The notes under the pieces were generated by a model that searched no databases, was not told where the DNA came from, and was given only the letters and a program-made list of their open reading frames with translations. The translations under genes were made by a program, and so were the position numbers. Shown in pieces: positions 14,681 to 32,450 of a DNA stretch of 40,010 nucleotides (position 1 is the stretch's first letter; each line of letters starts with the position of its first letter). Where the stretch lies: NCBI GenBank assembly GCA_900320505.1, contig ONSL01000016.1, positions 1 through 40,010 on the forward strand. Reading direction: 5' to 3'. The stretch comes from an uncultured Eubacteriales bacterium (GTDB taxonomy: Bacteria > Bacillota_I > Bacilli_A > RF39 > UBA660).

Positions 14681-15523
14681 ATGAATGAATTAGCAAAAAA
14701 AGATAAAATAGAGAATATGATATATGAAATAAGAGGAAGAGAGGTTATACTTGACTCTGACCTAGCAAAACTTTATGGAGTTGAAACAAAAAGAATAAAC
14801 GAAGCAGTAAGAAGAAATAAAAATAAGTTTCCAGAAAGATTGTGCTTTAGATTAACAGAACATGAAATATTAATTATTTCAAGGTCGCAAATTGCGACCT
14901 TAAAGAATGTACGTGGGCAACACAGAAAATACTTGCCAACTGTCTTTACAGAACAAGGAATATATATGCTAGCAACAATACTAAAAAGTAAAATTGCAAC
15001 TGATACCACAATTGCAATAATGGATGCATTTGTTTTGATGAAAAAATATATTTCAAATGATTTAGTTGAACAAAAATATGTTAATAAATTAGTTTATAAT
15101 TTAGATGATAGGGTAAGTTTACTTGAAGCATCATTTAGTGAGATAAACAATAAAGAAAAAGTAAATCCACTATTTTTTGAAGGACAAATATATGATGCTT
15201 ATAGTTTATTAAAAAACATATTTGATAAGGCAAGTAAAGAAATAATAATTATAGATAACTATATAGATAGACATTTATTAGATGTACTTAAATATAACAA
15301 TGAAGATTACTTAAAATATAAAAAAGAATATTCTAATGTAAAACTAATTATTAATAATAAATTTCATGATAGATTTATAATTCTGGATAAGAATATTTTA
15401 TATCACTCAGGAGCAAGCTTTAAAGATTTAGGTAGTAAATGTTTTGCAATAAGTAAGATTGATGATAAAGACATGCTTAATAGTTTATTGAAACATATAG
15501 ATGGAGGTAAGGTACATGAATAA
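14681..15523 (+). CDS. ORF6N-domain protein with PLD-like tail, array copy A (intact head)
   Basis: The 280-residue protein has a ribosome site (aggaggg) 11 bases before ATG 14681. Residues ~8-125 are a complete ORF6N domain, a putative DNA-binding fold common in phage and mobile elements: IENMIYEIRGREVILDSDLA, LYGVETKRINEAVRRN, NKFPERLCFRLTEHE, then LPTVFTEQGIYMLATIL. The tail (~160-280) has FFEGQIYDAYSLLKNIF, IIIIDNYIDRHLLDVL, HDRFIILD and YHSGASFKDLG, a phospholipase D-like half domain with HDR in place of HKD. Relative to copy C, 12 residues with a central strand are missing after LLDVLK. A 21-base palindrome lies inside the head at 14881-14901. The last 8 bases overlap an embedded start codon for copy B. 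Its function is unknown; a regulator or defence-related role is inferred. Confidence 0.85.
   Translation: MNELAKKDKIENMIYEIRGREVILDSDLAKLYGVETKRINEAVRRNKNKFPERLCFRLTEHEILIISRSQIATLKNVRGQHRKYLPTVFTEQGIYMLATILKSKIATDTTIAIMDAFVLMKKYISNDLVEQKYVNKLVYNLDDRVSLLEASFSEINNKEKVNPLFFEGQIYDAYSLLKNIFDKASKEIIIIDNYIDRHLLDVLKYNNEDYLKYKKEYSNVKLIINNKFHDRFIILDKNILYHSGASFKDLGSKCFAISKIDDKDMLNSLLKHIDGGKVHE
14881..14901. repeat. Perfect palindrome inside ORF6N head A
   Basis: AAGGTCGCAA, centre A, TTGCGACCTT: 10-base arms with no mismatch. It encodes SRSQIATL between the HTH-like part and the FTEQG motif. Copies B and C have different palindromes at the equivalent position. Confidence 0.95.
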
Positions 15524-15542
15524 ATTAACAAAAGAAAATAAG
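15155..15542 (+). repeat. Tail repeat unit of copy A, including next ribosome site and start
   Basis: It runs from GAAAAAGTAAAT to the leader ATGAATAAATTAACAAAAG...AATAAG. It closely matches 15931-16327 apart from scattered substitutions and a 9-base indel. Both units end with GGAGGTAAGGTACATGAATAA, an embedded ribosome site and start codon for the following copy. Confidence 0.9.
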
Positions 15543-16308
15543 ACTTTATGAATGTAAAAATGGAACAAAAGAGATAAATCAAGCTGTTAAAAATAATCCT
15601 AATAAATTTCCTGAAAGATTTACTTTTAAAATTAGCAAAGAAGAATCCCAAATTTTTTTGGTCAAAATTTTTGACCAAAAAAAAGAGACTCGTGGTGGAA
15701 AATATAATATGCCAAGAGTTTTCACAGAAGAGGGTGTACTTATGCTTGCAACAATTCTAAAAAGCAAGGTAGCAGCATCAACTACAATTGCAATAATGGA
15801 TGCATTCGTTGCAATGAGAAAATATATATCTAGTAGCATAATAGAACAAAAGTATATAAACAATCTTGTATTAGAAGATCATGAAAAAGTAAAGTTATTG
15901 CAAGAATCAATTAATGAAATGAACAAGAAAGAAAAAGTAAATACATTATTCTTTGAAGGACAAATATACGATGCTTATAGTTTATTAAAAAACATATTTG
16001 ATAAGGCAAGTAAAGAAATAATAATTATAGATAACTATATAGATAGACATTTATTAGATGTACTTAAAACAAACAAGTATAATAATGAGGATTACTTAAA
16101 ATATAAGAAAGAATATTCTAATGTAGAATTAATTATTAATAATAATTTTCATGATAGATTTATAATTCTTGATAAAAGTATTCTATATCATTCAGGAGCA
16201 AGCTTTAAAGATTTGGGTAGTAAATGCTTTGCAATAAGTAAGATTGATGATAAAGACATGCTTAATAGTTTATTGAAACATATAGATGGAGGTAAGGTAC
16301 ATGAATAA
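15541..16308 (+). pseudogene. ORF6N / PLD-like array copy B, decayed at the 5' end
   Basis: The readable frame begins RLYECKNGTKEINQAVKNN at 15541 and continues through NKFPERFTFKISKEESQIF, MPRVFTEEGVLMLATIL and the same PLD-like tail as copy A. The first ~27 ORF6N residues, including the LDSDLA part, are deleted. The strong embedded start (ATG 15516, ribosome site GGAGGT at 15503-15508) is in another frame and makes only MNKLTKENKTL before a stop. No in-frame ATG exists near the 5' end. The only candidate is TTG 15658, which would remove half the head and has no ribosome site; it would give 216 residues. Nine residues are missing in the tail relative to copy C. It may be dead, or a silent cassette for recombination (inference). 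Confidence 0.7.
15653..15683. repeat. Perfect 31-base palindrome inside ORF6N head B
   Basis: The left arm TTTTTTTGGTCAAAA (15653-15667), centre T, and right arm TTTTGACCAAAAAAA (15669-15683) match without mismatch. The half-sites GGTC and GACC have the same 9-base spacing as in copy A, while the bases between them differ. Confidence 0.95.
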
Positions 16309-16327
16309 ATTAACAAAAGAAAATAAG
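15931..16327 (+). repeat. Tail repeat unit of copy B, including next ribosome site and start
   Basis: This is a direct repeat of 15155-15542, including the terminal leader ATGAATAAATTAACAAAAG...AATAAG that now precedes copy C. Head B is therefore flanked by direct repeats of roughly 390 bases, a suitable substrate for homologous deletion or amplification. Confidence 0.9.
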
Positions 16328-16338
16328 GAAGAGAGGTT

Positions 16339-17172
16339 ATGCTAGATTCTGATTTAGCAAGACTTTATGAATGTAAAAATGGAACAAAAGATATTAATAA
16401 GGCCGTAAAAAGAAATCTTGATAAATTTCCAATTGATTTTTATTTTCAATTAGAACTTTTAGAATATGAAAATTTGAAGTTCCAAAATGGAACTTCAAGT
16501 TTAAATACTTATGGTGGAATAAGAAAGCTACCTCATGTTTTTACAGAACAAGGAGTTGCAATGCTTGCAACGGTAATTCATACAAGTGTCGCAGCAGAAA
16601 TAAGTGTAAAGATAATGAGAGCATTCGTAGCAATGAGACACTATATTATGAATAGCACTTTAGTAAATAATAATTATAATTATAATGATTTACTAATTAA
16701 TATGGATAATAGAATAAGTGATAATTCAAATAAAATAAAGTTAATAGAAAACACATTGTATGAAATGAATAAAAAAGAAAAAGTAAATACACTATTCTTT
16801 GAAGGGCAAATATACGATGCTTATAGTCTTTTAAGAAACATATTTGATAAAGCAAGTAAAGAAATAATAATTATAGATAACTATATAGATAGACATTTAT
16901 TAGATGTACTTAAAGACACAAATAAAAAAATAAATATATACACAAACAAATATAATAATGAAGATTATTTAAAATATAAAAAAGAATATTCTAATGTAAA
17001 ATTAATTATTAATAATAATTTTCATGATAGATTTATAATTCTTGATAAAAGTATTCTATATCATTCAGGAGCAAGCTTTAAAGATTTAGGTAGTAAATGC
17101 TTTGCAATTAACGAAATAGAAGATAAAGAAATTTTAAATATTTTATTAAATCATATAGAAAGGACTAATTAA
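16339..17172 (+). CDS. ORF6N-domain protein with full PLD-like tail, array copy C (N-terminally shortened)
   Basis: The 277-residue frame begins MLDSDLARLYECKNGTKDIN, in the middle of the normal ORF6N start, so about 18 residues are missing compared with copy A. AGGA at 16326-16329 lies 9 bases before ATG 16339 and could serve as its ribosome site. The repeat-encoded ATG 16301 is out of frame and ends at TAG 16343-16345, overlapping this start region, so termination-reinitiation is possible. The head keeps KLPHVFTEQGVAMLATVI. The tail is the longest of the three and contains KDTNKKINIYTNK, absent in A and partly absent in B, followed by HDRFIILD and YHSGASFKDLG. Its 3' end differs from the other tails. 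It is immediately followed by the AbiEi-like gene. Confidence 0.75.
   Translation: MLDSDLARLYECKNGTKDINKAVKRNLDKFPIDFYFQLELLEYENLKFQNGTSSLNTYGGIRKLPHVFTEQGVAMLATVIHTSVAAEISVKIMRAFVAMRHYIMNSTLVNNNYNYNDLLINMDNRISDNSNKIKLIENTLYEMNKKEKVNTLFFEGQIYDAYSLLRNIFDKASKEIIIIDNYIDRHLLDVLKDTNKKINIYTNKYNNEDYLKYKKEYSNVKLIINNNFHDRFIILDKSILYHSGASFKDLGSKCFAINEIEDKEILNILLNHIERTN
16474..16498. repeat. Palindrome inside ORF6N head C
   Basis: TTGAAGTTCCA (16474-16484), centre AAA, TGGAACTTCAA (16488-16498): 11-base perfect arms. Beyond one mismatch the arms continue AAA/TTT. It encodes LKFQNGTS, at the position equivalent to SRSQIATL in copy A. Confidence 0.95.
16777..17110 (+). repeat. Tail repeat unit of copy C (diverges at its 3' end)
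   Basis: It matches the A and B tails from GAAAAAGTAAAT to TTTGCAAT but carries 36 bases absent from A and 27 absent from B. After 17110 the sequence diverges and lacks the embedded leader for another copy, marking the end of the array. Confidence 0.85.
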
Positions 17173-17173
17173 T

Positions 17174-17713
17174 ATGATATATAAAAGAAAAGAATATGTA
17201 GAAAGATATGGTGTATATGAAATGAGAAAAAACATAAAAGAAGGTAAAATACATAAAATATCAAATGGCTACTATTTGGATGATGCCGAAAATGATGAAA
17301 TTAACATTATCACTAAAAAGTATAAAAATTCAGTATTTACAATGGAGTCTGCATTCTATATTTTAGGACTAACTAATAAGAAACCATTAAAACACACTAT
17401 TGCAACTAAAAGAGAAGGAACAAGATTTAAAGATAAAGACATTAAACAGTATTATATGAAAGATAATTTGTTTGACATAGGTATAACTGAAGTAGATTAT
17501 AAAAATACTAAAATAAGAGTATACGATAAAGAAAGAATGTTAATAGAACTAATTAGAAATAGATCAACACTTTCTTTTGATTATTACAAAGAAATAATAA
17601 GAAACTACAGAAAAATAATTAATAAAATGGATGGATATAAACTTGTAGAATATCTTGGACATTTTACAAATGGTAAAAAAATATATGAAAAAATATTATA
17701 TGAAGTTTATTAA
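17174..17713 (+). CDS. AbiEi-like antitoxin / transcriptional regulator, without an AbiEii partner
   Basis: The 179-residue protein starts one base after the copy C stop, with a ribosome site (AAAGGA) at its end. An N-terminal winged-helix-like part (EYVERYGVYEMRKNIKEGK) is followed by ISNGYYLDD, TMESAFYILGLTNKKP, FDIGITEVDYKNTKIRVYDKERMLIELIRNR and a C-terminal helical region with YKEIIRNYRK. This order and these motifs are characteristic of AbiEi, the antitoxin and autorepressor of type IV abiE systems. The normal partner, the AbiEii nucleotidyltransferase, is absent: the next gene is rfbA. It may regulate the ORF6N array, act alone as a regulator, or be a leftover of a decayed system. Confidence 0.8.
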   Translation: MIYKRKEYVERYGVYEMRKNIKEGKIHKISNGYYLDDAENDEINIITKKYKNSVFTMESAFYILGLTNKKPLKHTIATKREGTRFKDKDIKQYYMKDNLFDIGITEVDYKNTKIRVYDKERMLIELIRNRSTLSFDYYKEIIRNYRKIINKMDGYKLVEYLGHFTNGKKIYEKILYEVY

Positions 17714-30962: not shown

Positions 30963-32450
30963 ATGAAAAAAGAAAATAATAAAAGTAATATAAGCAAGAA
31001 TAAAAAGAATGAACAAACAAGCATAAACAAAAAAAGTATGTTTTTGATAGCAGTTCTTCTTCTTTTACTTGTAACATTAGTAGTAGGAGTATCATATCAA
31101 ATATTTTCATATAACAATGGAAAGAACTTTGGATTTGAAAATATATATGAAAATAATGATAATAATACATCTGGATATGATGTTGAAAAAACTTGTACAG
31201 GAACAAAATGTACATATAGATATTGTAAAGGAAATGTTTGTGTTACAGTAACATGTGATGGAAACAAATGCACATATAAATACTGTAGAGGAAATACATG
31301 TGCACATGTATCATGCGATGATGAAGACAATTGTTCATACAAAATATGTAATGGAACAAAATGCAAATCATGTTCTGATAATTCATGTTCATCAAAAATT
31401 TGTACTGGAAAAGATTGTACAAACGTAAATTGTAAGGGTAAGACTTGTACATTTGATGAATGTAAAGGAAACAAATGCGAAACAGAAATATGTGAAGGTA
31501 ATAGTTGCACAACATGCAAAGGCGATAAATGTACAACTGTAACATGTGAAGGTGATAAATGTACATTTAATGAATGTACAAAAGATAAATGTACAAATAC
31601 AACGTGTGAAGACGGAACATGTACAACATGTGATGGAAACAAATGCACATCAAAAACATGTGTAGATGGAACATGTAGAACTTGTACTGGTGACGAATGT
31701 GAAATATGTAAAGGTGATAAATGTACAAAATGTACTGGAAAGAGTTGTACAATGTGTGAAGAAAATAGTTGCACAGTATGTAATGACAAAGGATGTACTA
31801 AAGTAGAGTGCGATGGTAATAAATGTACATGTGATGGTAAAGAATGTCCTGATGTTAAGTGTAAAGATGGAACTTGTGTTGTATGTAACGGAGATAGTTG
31901 TGTAAAATGTAAAAATGGAACATGTACAGAGTGTAAGGATAGGACATGTAATGATGAACCAGCACCAGATCCTAATCCATTCACAAATGGTTCTGTAACA
32001 ATAGTATATACAGAAGGTGGAAATAGCGTAAGCCTTGAAAATGCACTTCCAATAGAAGATAAGGTTGGCAAGAAATTAACTGCAAATGGAGAATATATGG
32101 ACTTTACAGTTAGTGTAAACGTAAAAAGGACAAGTAATGTAAGTTATGTTGTTACAGCAGAAAAAGATCCATCAAGTAATATTGATGATAAATATGTTAA
32201 GCTTTATCTAGAAAGAAGCAACGATACATCATATAATGAAGAGATAATGGAGCCTAAACTATATGATGGAATAAAGAGTGCAAACTCCTATGGGGCACCT
32301 GCAGGAAGCATGATACTTGATACAGTATCAACAAATAAAACACTAACATATCATTATAGATTAAGAATGTGGTTAGATAAAAACTATAAAGTTGATAGTA
32401 CAAATAAGAAATTTATAGTAAGAGTAAATGTATATGGAATAGCAAGTTAA
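30963..32450 (+). CDS. Membrane-anchored cysteine-repeat protein (56 Cys)
   Basis: The 495-residue protein has ribosome site TTGAGG before ATG 30963. A basic cytoplasmic tail of ~25 residues precedes one membrane helix (~26-46), so the bulk is probably outside. Residues ~79-333 contain 56 Cys. At first a Cys occurs exactly every five residues (CTGTK CTYRY CKGNV CVTVT CDGNK). Further on the spacing alternates 5 and 3 (CTGDE CEI CKGDK CTK CTGKS CTM). Such regularity suggests a disulfide-braced beta-solenoid, as in insect antifreeze proteins (analogy only), or a metal-binding rod. A linker (EPAPDPNPF) leads to a beta-rich C-terminal domain (~345-495, VTIVYTEGGNSVSLENALPI, FIVRVNVYGIAS) with a possible TasA/camelysin resemblance. 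The function is unknown. tex starts 17 bases downstream. Confidence 0.8.
   Translation: MKKENNKSNISKNKKNEQTSINKKSMFLIAVLLLLLVTLVVGVSYQIFSYNNGKNFGFENIYENNDNNTSGYDVEKTCTGTKCTYRYCKGNVCVTVTCDGNKCTYKYCRGNTCAHVSCDDEDNCSYKICNGTKCKSCSDNSCSSKICTGKDCTNVNCKGKTCTFDECKGNKCETEICEGNSCTTCKGDKCTTVTCEGDKCTFNECTKDKCTNTTCEDGTCTTCDGNKCTSKTCVDGTCRTCTGDECEICKGDKCTKCTGKSCTMCEENSCTVCNDKGCTKVECDGNKCTCDGKECPDVKCKDGTCVVCNGDSCVKCKNGTCTECKDRTCNDEPAPDPNPFTNGSVTIVYTEGGNSVSLENALPIEDKVGKKLTANGEYMDFTVSVNVKRTSNVSYVVTAEKDPSSNIDDKYVKLYLERSNDTSYNEEIMEPKLYDGIKSANSYGAPAGSMILDTVSTNKTLTYHYRLRMWLDKNYKVDSTNKKFIVRVNVYGIAS

Follow-up and report, generated by a model that had tools for sequence, protein, structure and literature searches.

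Inverted repeats inside ORF6N genes covary with the recognition helix of the encoded protein and are probably its own binding sites

Introduction

Autoregulated or looping repressors can make use of auxiliary operators that lie inside genes, such as lac O2 in lacZ and the internal operator of gal. We describe a comparable element in ORF6N genes, beginning with a 40,010-nucleotide stretch of DNA from an uncultured Eubacteriales bacterium (assembly GCA_900320505.1, contig ONSL01000016.1; hereafter the window). The window is a contig of a 1.2 Mb genome and carries three tandem ORF6N genes at 14681-17172, here copies A, B, and C, each with a palindrome in the head of its coding sequence. As in lac O2 and gal, the putative operator stands inside a coding sequence and would be bound by a multimeric repressor. 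Unlike either, it stands in the codons of the regulator's own DNA-binding domain; its place is homologous throughout a superfamily, and its sequence varies in step with a recognition helix encoded about 70 bp upstream.

The relatives of ORF6N provide a second point of comparison. ORF6N (PF10543), Bro-N (PF02498), and pRha (PF09669) are related families, and the palindrome is a trait common to ORF6N and its Bro-N/DinD relatives. DinD, the DNA-damage-inducible protein D of Escherichia coli, resembles ORF6N in having a Bro-N-like head and an in-gene palindrome; it differs in its C-terminal region, in the even centre of its palindrome, and in a helix code placed at position 29. Further away are the archaeal regulators TrmB and TrmBL2, which likewise join a helix-turn-helix (HTH), a helical linker, and a PLD-like domain. 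These are the top Foldseek matches, although weak ones (E ~1e-3); ORF6N differs in keeping an HxR(x4)D motif, and the likeness is one of domain order and fold.

Intragenic operators and autoregulation are already known, and the most likely use of the ORF6N site, autoregulation, is an old kind of job. The architecture, in which a site is overprinted on the domain codons of its own reader, is homologous across a superfamily, and covaries with the helix, we rate as categorically new. The full-text literature, in a coverage that leaves out many subscription papers and bioRxiv, yielded no description of in-gene palindromes or a binding code for ORF6N, nor of self-encoded sites of this kind.

A palindrome at one codon window across the ORF6N family

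ORF6N genes were sampled from the family, class, and phylum of the window's genome, from wider contigs (Bacillota, Bacteroidota, Spirochaetota, Fibrobacterota, and others), and from viral contigs. A first set held 138 unique heads and a larger set 241 heads from many phyla. The measure was the best palindrome score before the FTEQG motif, and the control consisted of draws of synonymous codons from the same gene.

An initial annotation of the window had noted three palindromes at one homologous site in the three ORF6N genes, and both their coordinates and their centres hold. Its argument that chance is insufficient, and that the symmetry should exceed codon-shuffled controls in many genomes, is upheld by the first set: the mean best score is 11.9 in the heads and 5.2 in the synonymous draws, and a score of at least 9 is reached by 90% of heads and 1.7% of draws. 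The same draws rule out an artefact of codon usage. Within the larger set, a strong palindrome (score at least 8) occupies the same codon window in 220 of 241 heads, and most of the others carry mismatched versions.

The dyad is centred on the first base of the codon following Gln (L-R/K-S-Q-x-V/A-T-S) in 208 heads, as it is in palindromes A and C; in palindrome B the centre is shifted by one base. Copy B belongs to a group of 12 heads that read the same DNA (GGTC..GACC) in another frame, as L-V-E-I-F-D-Q or V-A-N-C-D-H; it is therefore the DNA, not the peptide, that is kept. From the outside inward, the half-site is T-T-G/A-A-R(±8)-G(±7)-T(±6, 219/220)-C/T/G(±5)-N(±4)-C/A(±3)-A(±2) around a loose centre, with a centre spacing of 1 or 3 bases and a mismatch at ±1 accepted in 88 of 220 heads. 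Some heads (L147, L109, L029) contain tandem pairs of palindrome-type segments.

Perfect inverted repeats of 9-20 bases around a short centre would be able to pair in RNA as well, and the annotation had offered an RNA hairpin as an alternative; such a hairpin might serve translation control, processing, or stability of the mRNA. Structured mRNA tolerates G.U pairs and has a hairpin loop of at least 3 bases. The 140 arm mismatches include more of the A.C type (47) than of the G.U type (28), and the spacing at the centre fits a DNA dyad. The bases also covary with the recognition residues of the HTH, as set out below, and the same sequences recur upstream of genes. Mismatch types, centre geometry, and helix covariation together lead us to discard the hairpin as very improbable.

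A residue-to-base code

Mutual information was computed between half-site bases and alignment columns, with columns outside the palindrome considered. The base at ±3 goes with helix position 35 (0.82 bit; next-best column outside the palindrome, 0.24), ±4 with positions 31 and 28 (1.43 and 1.12 bit), and ±5 with positions 31 (1.15 bit) and 28. Beyond the helix, ±10 tracks wing residue 73 (0.9 bit) and ±8 tracks wing residue 74; ±7 follows position 27, weakly. Positions 27, 28, 31, and 35 lie on the same face of a helix and correspond to K37, R38, E41, and R45 in the AlphaFold2 model of copy A, where helix 36-45 is the second helix of the HTH.

The rules that emerge are near-deterministic. All 162 heads with Arg at position 35 have C at ±3, and all 66 with Asn there have A. 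At positions 28/31, Arg-Glu specifies G,C at ±4,±5 in 69/69 heads, and the other pairs are A,C for Gln, C,T for Lys, and T,T for Leu; Arg at position 31 goes with G at ±5 in 39/40. Wing residue 73 relates to ±10 as Arg to G (146/148), Lys to A (55/59), and Tyr/Phe to T (11/11). Altogether, the 28/31 code for ±4/±5 holds in 163 of 168 testable heads. Arg-G, Asn-A, and Gln-A are textbook residue-base contacts.

The three window genes follow the same rules. In copy A, R38, E41, and R45 go with C, G, and C at ±5, ±4, and ±3; with R45 the head fits GGTCGCAA half-sites, and the code predicts GGTCGAAA half-sites for Asn at that position. Palindrome C has T at ±5 and C at ±4 with its Asp-Lys pair, and C at ±3 with its Arg, in agreement with the code. 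Palindrome B is of the same DNA class, read in another frame, and its C, A, A at ±5/±4/±3 are what the code learnt from in-phase copies predicts. Such in-phase rules foretell these three bases in 11 of the 12 frame-shifted copies, and the single miss rests on one atypical training head. The annotation's observation that symmetry is kept while sequence diversifies is thereby extended from three genes to the whole head collection, with residue-base covariation accompanying it.

Shared ancestry was controlled for with a tree inferred after removal of the helix and palindrome columns, on whose well-supported branches independent pairs were counted. This tree shows at least 21 changes of residue 35. 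Concordant independent pairs number 6/6 for residue 35, a mean of 6.2 of 7 for Glu 31, 7.5 of 9 for Gln 31, and 7.8 of 8 for residue 73, with no opposite pair in any test; the link of position 27 to ±7 is weak here (1.9 of 5).

Covariation of this kind might arise from contact between protein segments, the DNA symmetry then following from the peptide; in its favour, residues 57-64 are encoded by some of the palindrome bases and covary too. We find this reading scarcely credible, since synonymous bases obey the code: at the Ser codon covering -4, Arg-Glu heads use TCG (61/61) and Gln heads mostly TCA (65/76), a difference in the third base only, and TCG is a minor Ser codon in the ORF6N genes studied. 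Frame-shifted copies follow the code too, even though their reading of the same DNA yields different peptides. Together with the loss of symmetry in synonymous draws, these two points effectively refute protein-protein covariation.

The initial annotation had suggested that the palindrome is at once the binding site of its own protein and the codons of a specificity-determining loop. The first half of this proposal is very probable in view of the covariation. The second half is not supported: specificity follows the recognition helix, by way of the four residues named above, together with a wing residue that comes after the palindrome. In the copy A model, the stretch that the palindrome encodes is of low confidence (pLDDT ~49); it sits at the wing tip between strands 55-57 and 87-89 and can be read in another frame with the code intact.

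Sites found in the window's genome and 12 relatives lie at ORF6N loci

The pattern RGTBNMANNNTKNVACY occurs 4 times in the window against 0.28 expected; three occurrences are palindromes A-C, and the fourth (31858) is without palindrome symmetry. Across the window's genome (about 82% complete), perfect palindromes of the general pattern are found only in its five ORF6N genes. Besides copies A-C these are L002 and L003, which are on other contigs and have the palindrome at the same place. The GGTC-type pattern was sought in 12 relatives, where it occurs 45 times; a backward-pattern control occurs 0 times. By manual comparison with the gene table, 32 of these sites are in ORF6N heads, 1 in an ORF6N remnant, and 12 within about 400 bp upstream of ORF6N genes. 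No sites outside ORF6N loci were seen in the window's genome or, for the GGTC type, in the 12 relatives. Given this confinement, the targets of the protein appear to be ORF6N genes themselves, usually through the in-gene site alone and sometimes with promoter operators in addition. A second own-type site (at most 2 mismatches) lies upstream of 25/229 genes, where about 6.5 are expected.

Ten of the 12 upstream GGTC-type sites belong to one genome, G136, several of them paired at a spacing of 38-39 bp. Four upstream regions of G136 (C6:10979-11033, C10:23460-23756, C13:20022-20077, C1:36869-36992) hold two to four operator-like palindromes of mixed specificity. Judged by their types, the mixed sites probably reflect cross-regulation among paralogues. 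One may then ask whether the in-gene site serves other paralogues, as a decoy or in cross-regulation, and not its own protein; besides the G136 sites, copy B and L002 share one site type. We hold this to be improbable as a general account, because the code ties the site to the helix of the same gene in about 97% of heads and many genomes have a single ORF6N gene. A separate idea, that paralogues within a genome avoid each other's site, is rejected: there are 10 same-type pairs where 9.1 are expected, and therefore no avoidance.

Viral contigs were also scanned. Protein A alone as query retrieved no relatives from them; an alignment was needed as query. A scan of these contigs for TTGGTCRAANNNTTYGACCAA gave only seven matches, mostly non-palindromic and none in ORF6N genes. 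One viral gene outside ORF6N, with an HTH-like segment, contains a perfect palindrome, ATTGGTCAAATGATTTGACCAAT (L285:6369-6389), possibly a replication-protein site.

DinD and Bro-N relatives

DinD heads carry an even-centred palindrome of the ACCATTTTG..CAAAATGGT class, nearly always at the same codon. A score of at least 8.5 is reached by 55% of DinD heads against 3% of controls, and by 47% against 1% in a Bro-N subfamily of the YWxxLK type. Each has a code of its own: in DinD, position 29 goes with ±6 (Arg with G, Glu with C); in the Bro-N subfamily, residue W+2 goes with ±5 (Val with T, Lys with G, Thr with C or G). The palindrome was absent from the sampled phage-type Bro-N (ESGLY) and Rha heads. 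Since DinD and Bro-N proteins share the palindrome and have other C-terminal regions, it is independent of the PLD-like domain.

The dinD gene of E. coli K-12 (L314:3761-4585) has the in-gene palindrome TGACCATTTCGAGGAGATCCTCGATATGGTCA at codons ~58-69, with a score of 12; codon draws over the whole gene reach at most 10 (n=300). Upstream of the gene stands a palindromic box, AACTGTATATAAATACAGTT, that resembles a LexA box. Two dinD alleles occur among E. coli strains (L314, L429, L430); the second, that of a BL21-derived strain, encodes the helix WRNF where K-12 has YRHF, and its palindrome is different and partly mismatched. In genome G088, Bro-N and ORF6N matches stand side by side in an apparent single frame (258-411 amino acids; C3, C5, C6, C17), probably as double-headed proteins.

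A self-encoded operator and its alternatives

We propose that the ORF6N protein binds its in-gene palindrome as a symmetric winged-helix dimer; this binding, taken by itself, is very likely in our judgement. The site would share its bases with the codons of a flexible loop, at the wing tip of the DNA-binding domain. Positions 28 and 31 would read ±4/±5, position 35 would read ±3, wing residue 73 would read ±10, and position 27 would read ±7/±8 less strongly. The purpose would be negative autoregulation through the in-gene operator, with the help, in some genes, of at least one operator in the promoter. That the product of each ORF6N gene has its binding site within that gene, and occupies it as a dimer for this purpose, is on balance likely; physical binding and repression are what we infer from sequence.

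Several observations weigh against this proposal. A promoter site is present in only about 10% of genes, and most have the in-gene site alone; the operator is about 200 bp inside the gene, which bears on how repression from there would work. A few heads (L128, L233, L161, L083) have an absent or weak palindrome, and 5/168 break the 28/31 code. Among these code-breakers, L130 has a code-matching site in its promoter, and L109 has a second palindrome-type segment, encoding LRSKNLTA, that suggests the type expected from its helix. Finally, the PLD-like domain keeps HxR(x4)D, and a nuclease role is possible.

This last point leads to an alternative in which the protein binds for a selfish or DNA-processing end, the PLD-like domain nicking or cutting its own site and so driving gene conversion, tandem duplication, or spread. 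The C-terminal half of copy A matches the nucleases NucT, Nuc, and Zucchini (Foldseek probability 1.00, E 2e-3 to 3e-2), and H229-D-R231-x4-D236 is invariant. ORF6N genes also stand in tandem arrays with like tails and different heads, and head fragments of ORF6N occur in relatives. We nevertheless think this alternative unlikely. The motif departs from the HxK(x4)D of PLD nucleases, with Arg in place of the catalytic Lys; in-gene palindromes also occur in DinD and the Bro-N subfamily, whose C-terminal regions are different; the site is intact in nearly all copies, unlike a homing target; and promoter sites are better matched by regulation. For the recombination or nicking site mentioned in the annotation, no positive evidence appeared. 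The PLD-like domain could be a sensor or oligomerisation domain, by analogy with TrmB, or a nuclease. A sequence search returned no solved structure (best E 0.042).

Under autoregulation, the head would act as a portable operator carrier, suited to genes whose heads recombine and move; because some 120 bp of coding DNA contain both site and reader, the two would move together in paralogue recombination or genome transfer. This would explain how a mobile, paralogue-recombining DNA-binding domain can stay matched to its site. More broadly, we consider it probable that the superfamily is self-addressed: site and reader are overprinted, a moved head brings a functional operator with it, and the genes are regulatory (or self-targeting) units complete in themselves, whether in bacteria, plasmids, or phages, E. 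coli dinD included. Very many natural protein-site pairs would then be present in sequence databases, and a general residue-to-base code could be derived from them. Predicting a site from the sequence of a DNA-binding protein is an open problem, largely because such pairs are laborious to collect; here each gene supplies its own, in at least 3 subfamilies and with near-deterministic rules. ORF6N, DinD, and Bro-N proteins, mostly without an assigned role, gain a concrete first function to test, and the dinD gene of E. coli K-12 allows the idea to be tested directly.

The tandem ORF6N genes of the window

Coordinates of the genes, palindromes, and helix codons are collected in Table 1. Against PF10543 (gathering cut-off 27.8 bits), copy A scores 106.6 bits, copy C 78.5 bits (E 4.8e-22), and copy B 58.3 bits in a whole-genome search, all above the cut-off. 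Copy A is a complete gene, and its AlphaFold2 model comprises an HTH, a wing, a long helix, and a PLD-like C-terminal domain. Copy B has no obvious start codon ahead of its ORF6N head in frame (the first listed start, TTG 15658, falls within palindrome B); from this and from the start of copy C, copies B and C are taken as 5'-shortened.

Table 1. Features of the ORF6N array, in window coordinates.
Feature	Position	Strand	Basis or detail
Copy A: ORF6N-long helix-PLD-like protein, 280 amino acids	14681..15523	+	PF10543 E 8.1e-31; AlphaFold2 model
Recognition-helix codons of copy A (T36-R45; putative reading residues K37, R38, E41, R45)	14786..14815	+	model helix 36-45; covariation
Palindrome A, AAGGTCGCAA-A-TTGCGACCTT; putative binding site of protein A	14881-14901	+	half-site AAGGTCGCAA
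Copy B: 5'-shortened ORF6N gene	15544..16308	+	open frame and open reading frame listing; upstream frames closed
Recognition-helix codons of copy B (TKEINQAVKN; K, E, Q, N = positions 27, 28, 31, 35)	15565..15594	+	sequence
Palindrome B, TTTTTTTGGTCAAAA-T-TTTTGACCAAAAAAA; 15-base arms around T	15653-15683	+	other frame, L-V-K-I-F-D-Q
Copy C: 5'-shortened ORF6N gene, 277 amino acids	16339..17172	+	PF10543 match; start at 16339
Recognition-helix codons of copy C (TKDINKAVKR; K, D, K, R = positions 27, 28, 31, 35)	16384..16413	+	sequence
Palindrome C, TTGAAGTTCCA-AAA-TGGAACTTCAA; putative binding site of protein C	16474-16498	+	sequence

The tails of the three copies are 83-94% identical in aligned blocks (15105-17170), and the heads are strongly diverged. 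As a side reading, this combination may reflect head swapping or tail conversion between paralogues.

Directly after the array, 17174-17713 encodes a 179-amino-acid protein without a Pfam match. Farther along, at 30963-32450, the window encodes a cysteine-rich protein that has a hydrophobic segment at its N terminus and numerous short repeats resembling C-x-G-x-x-C-T.

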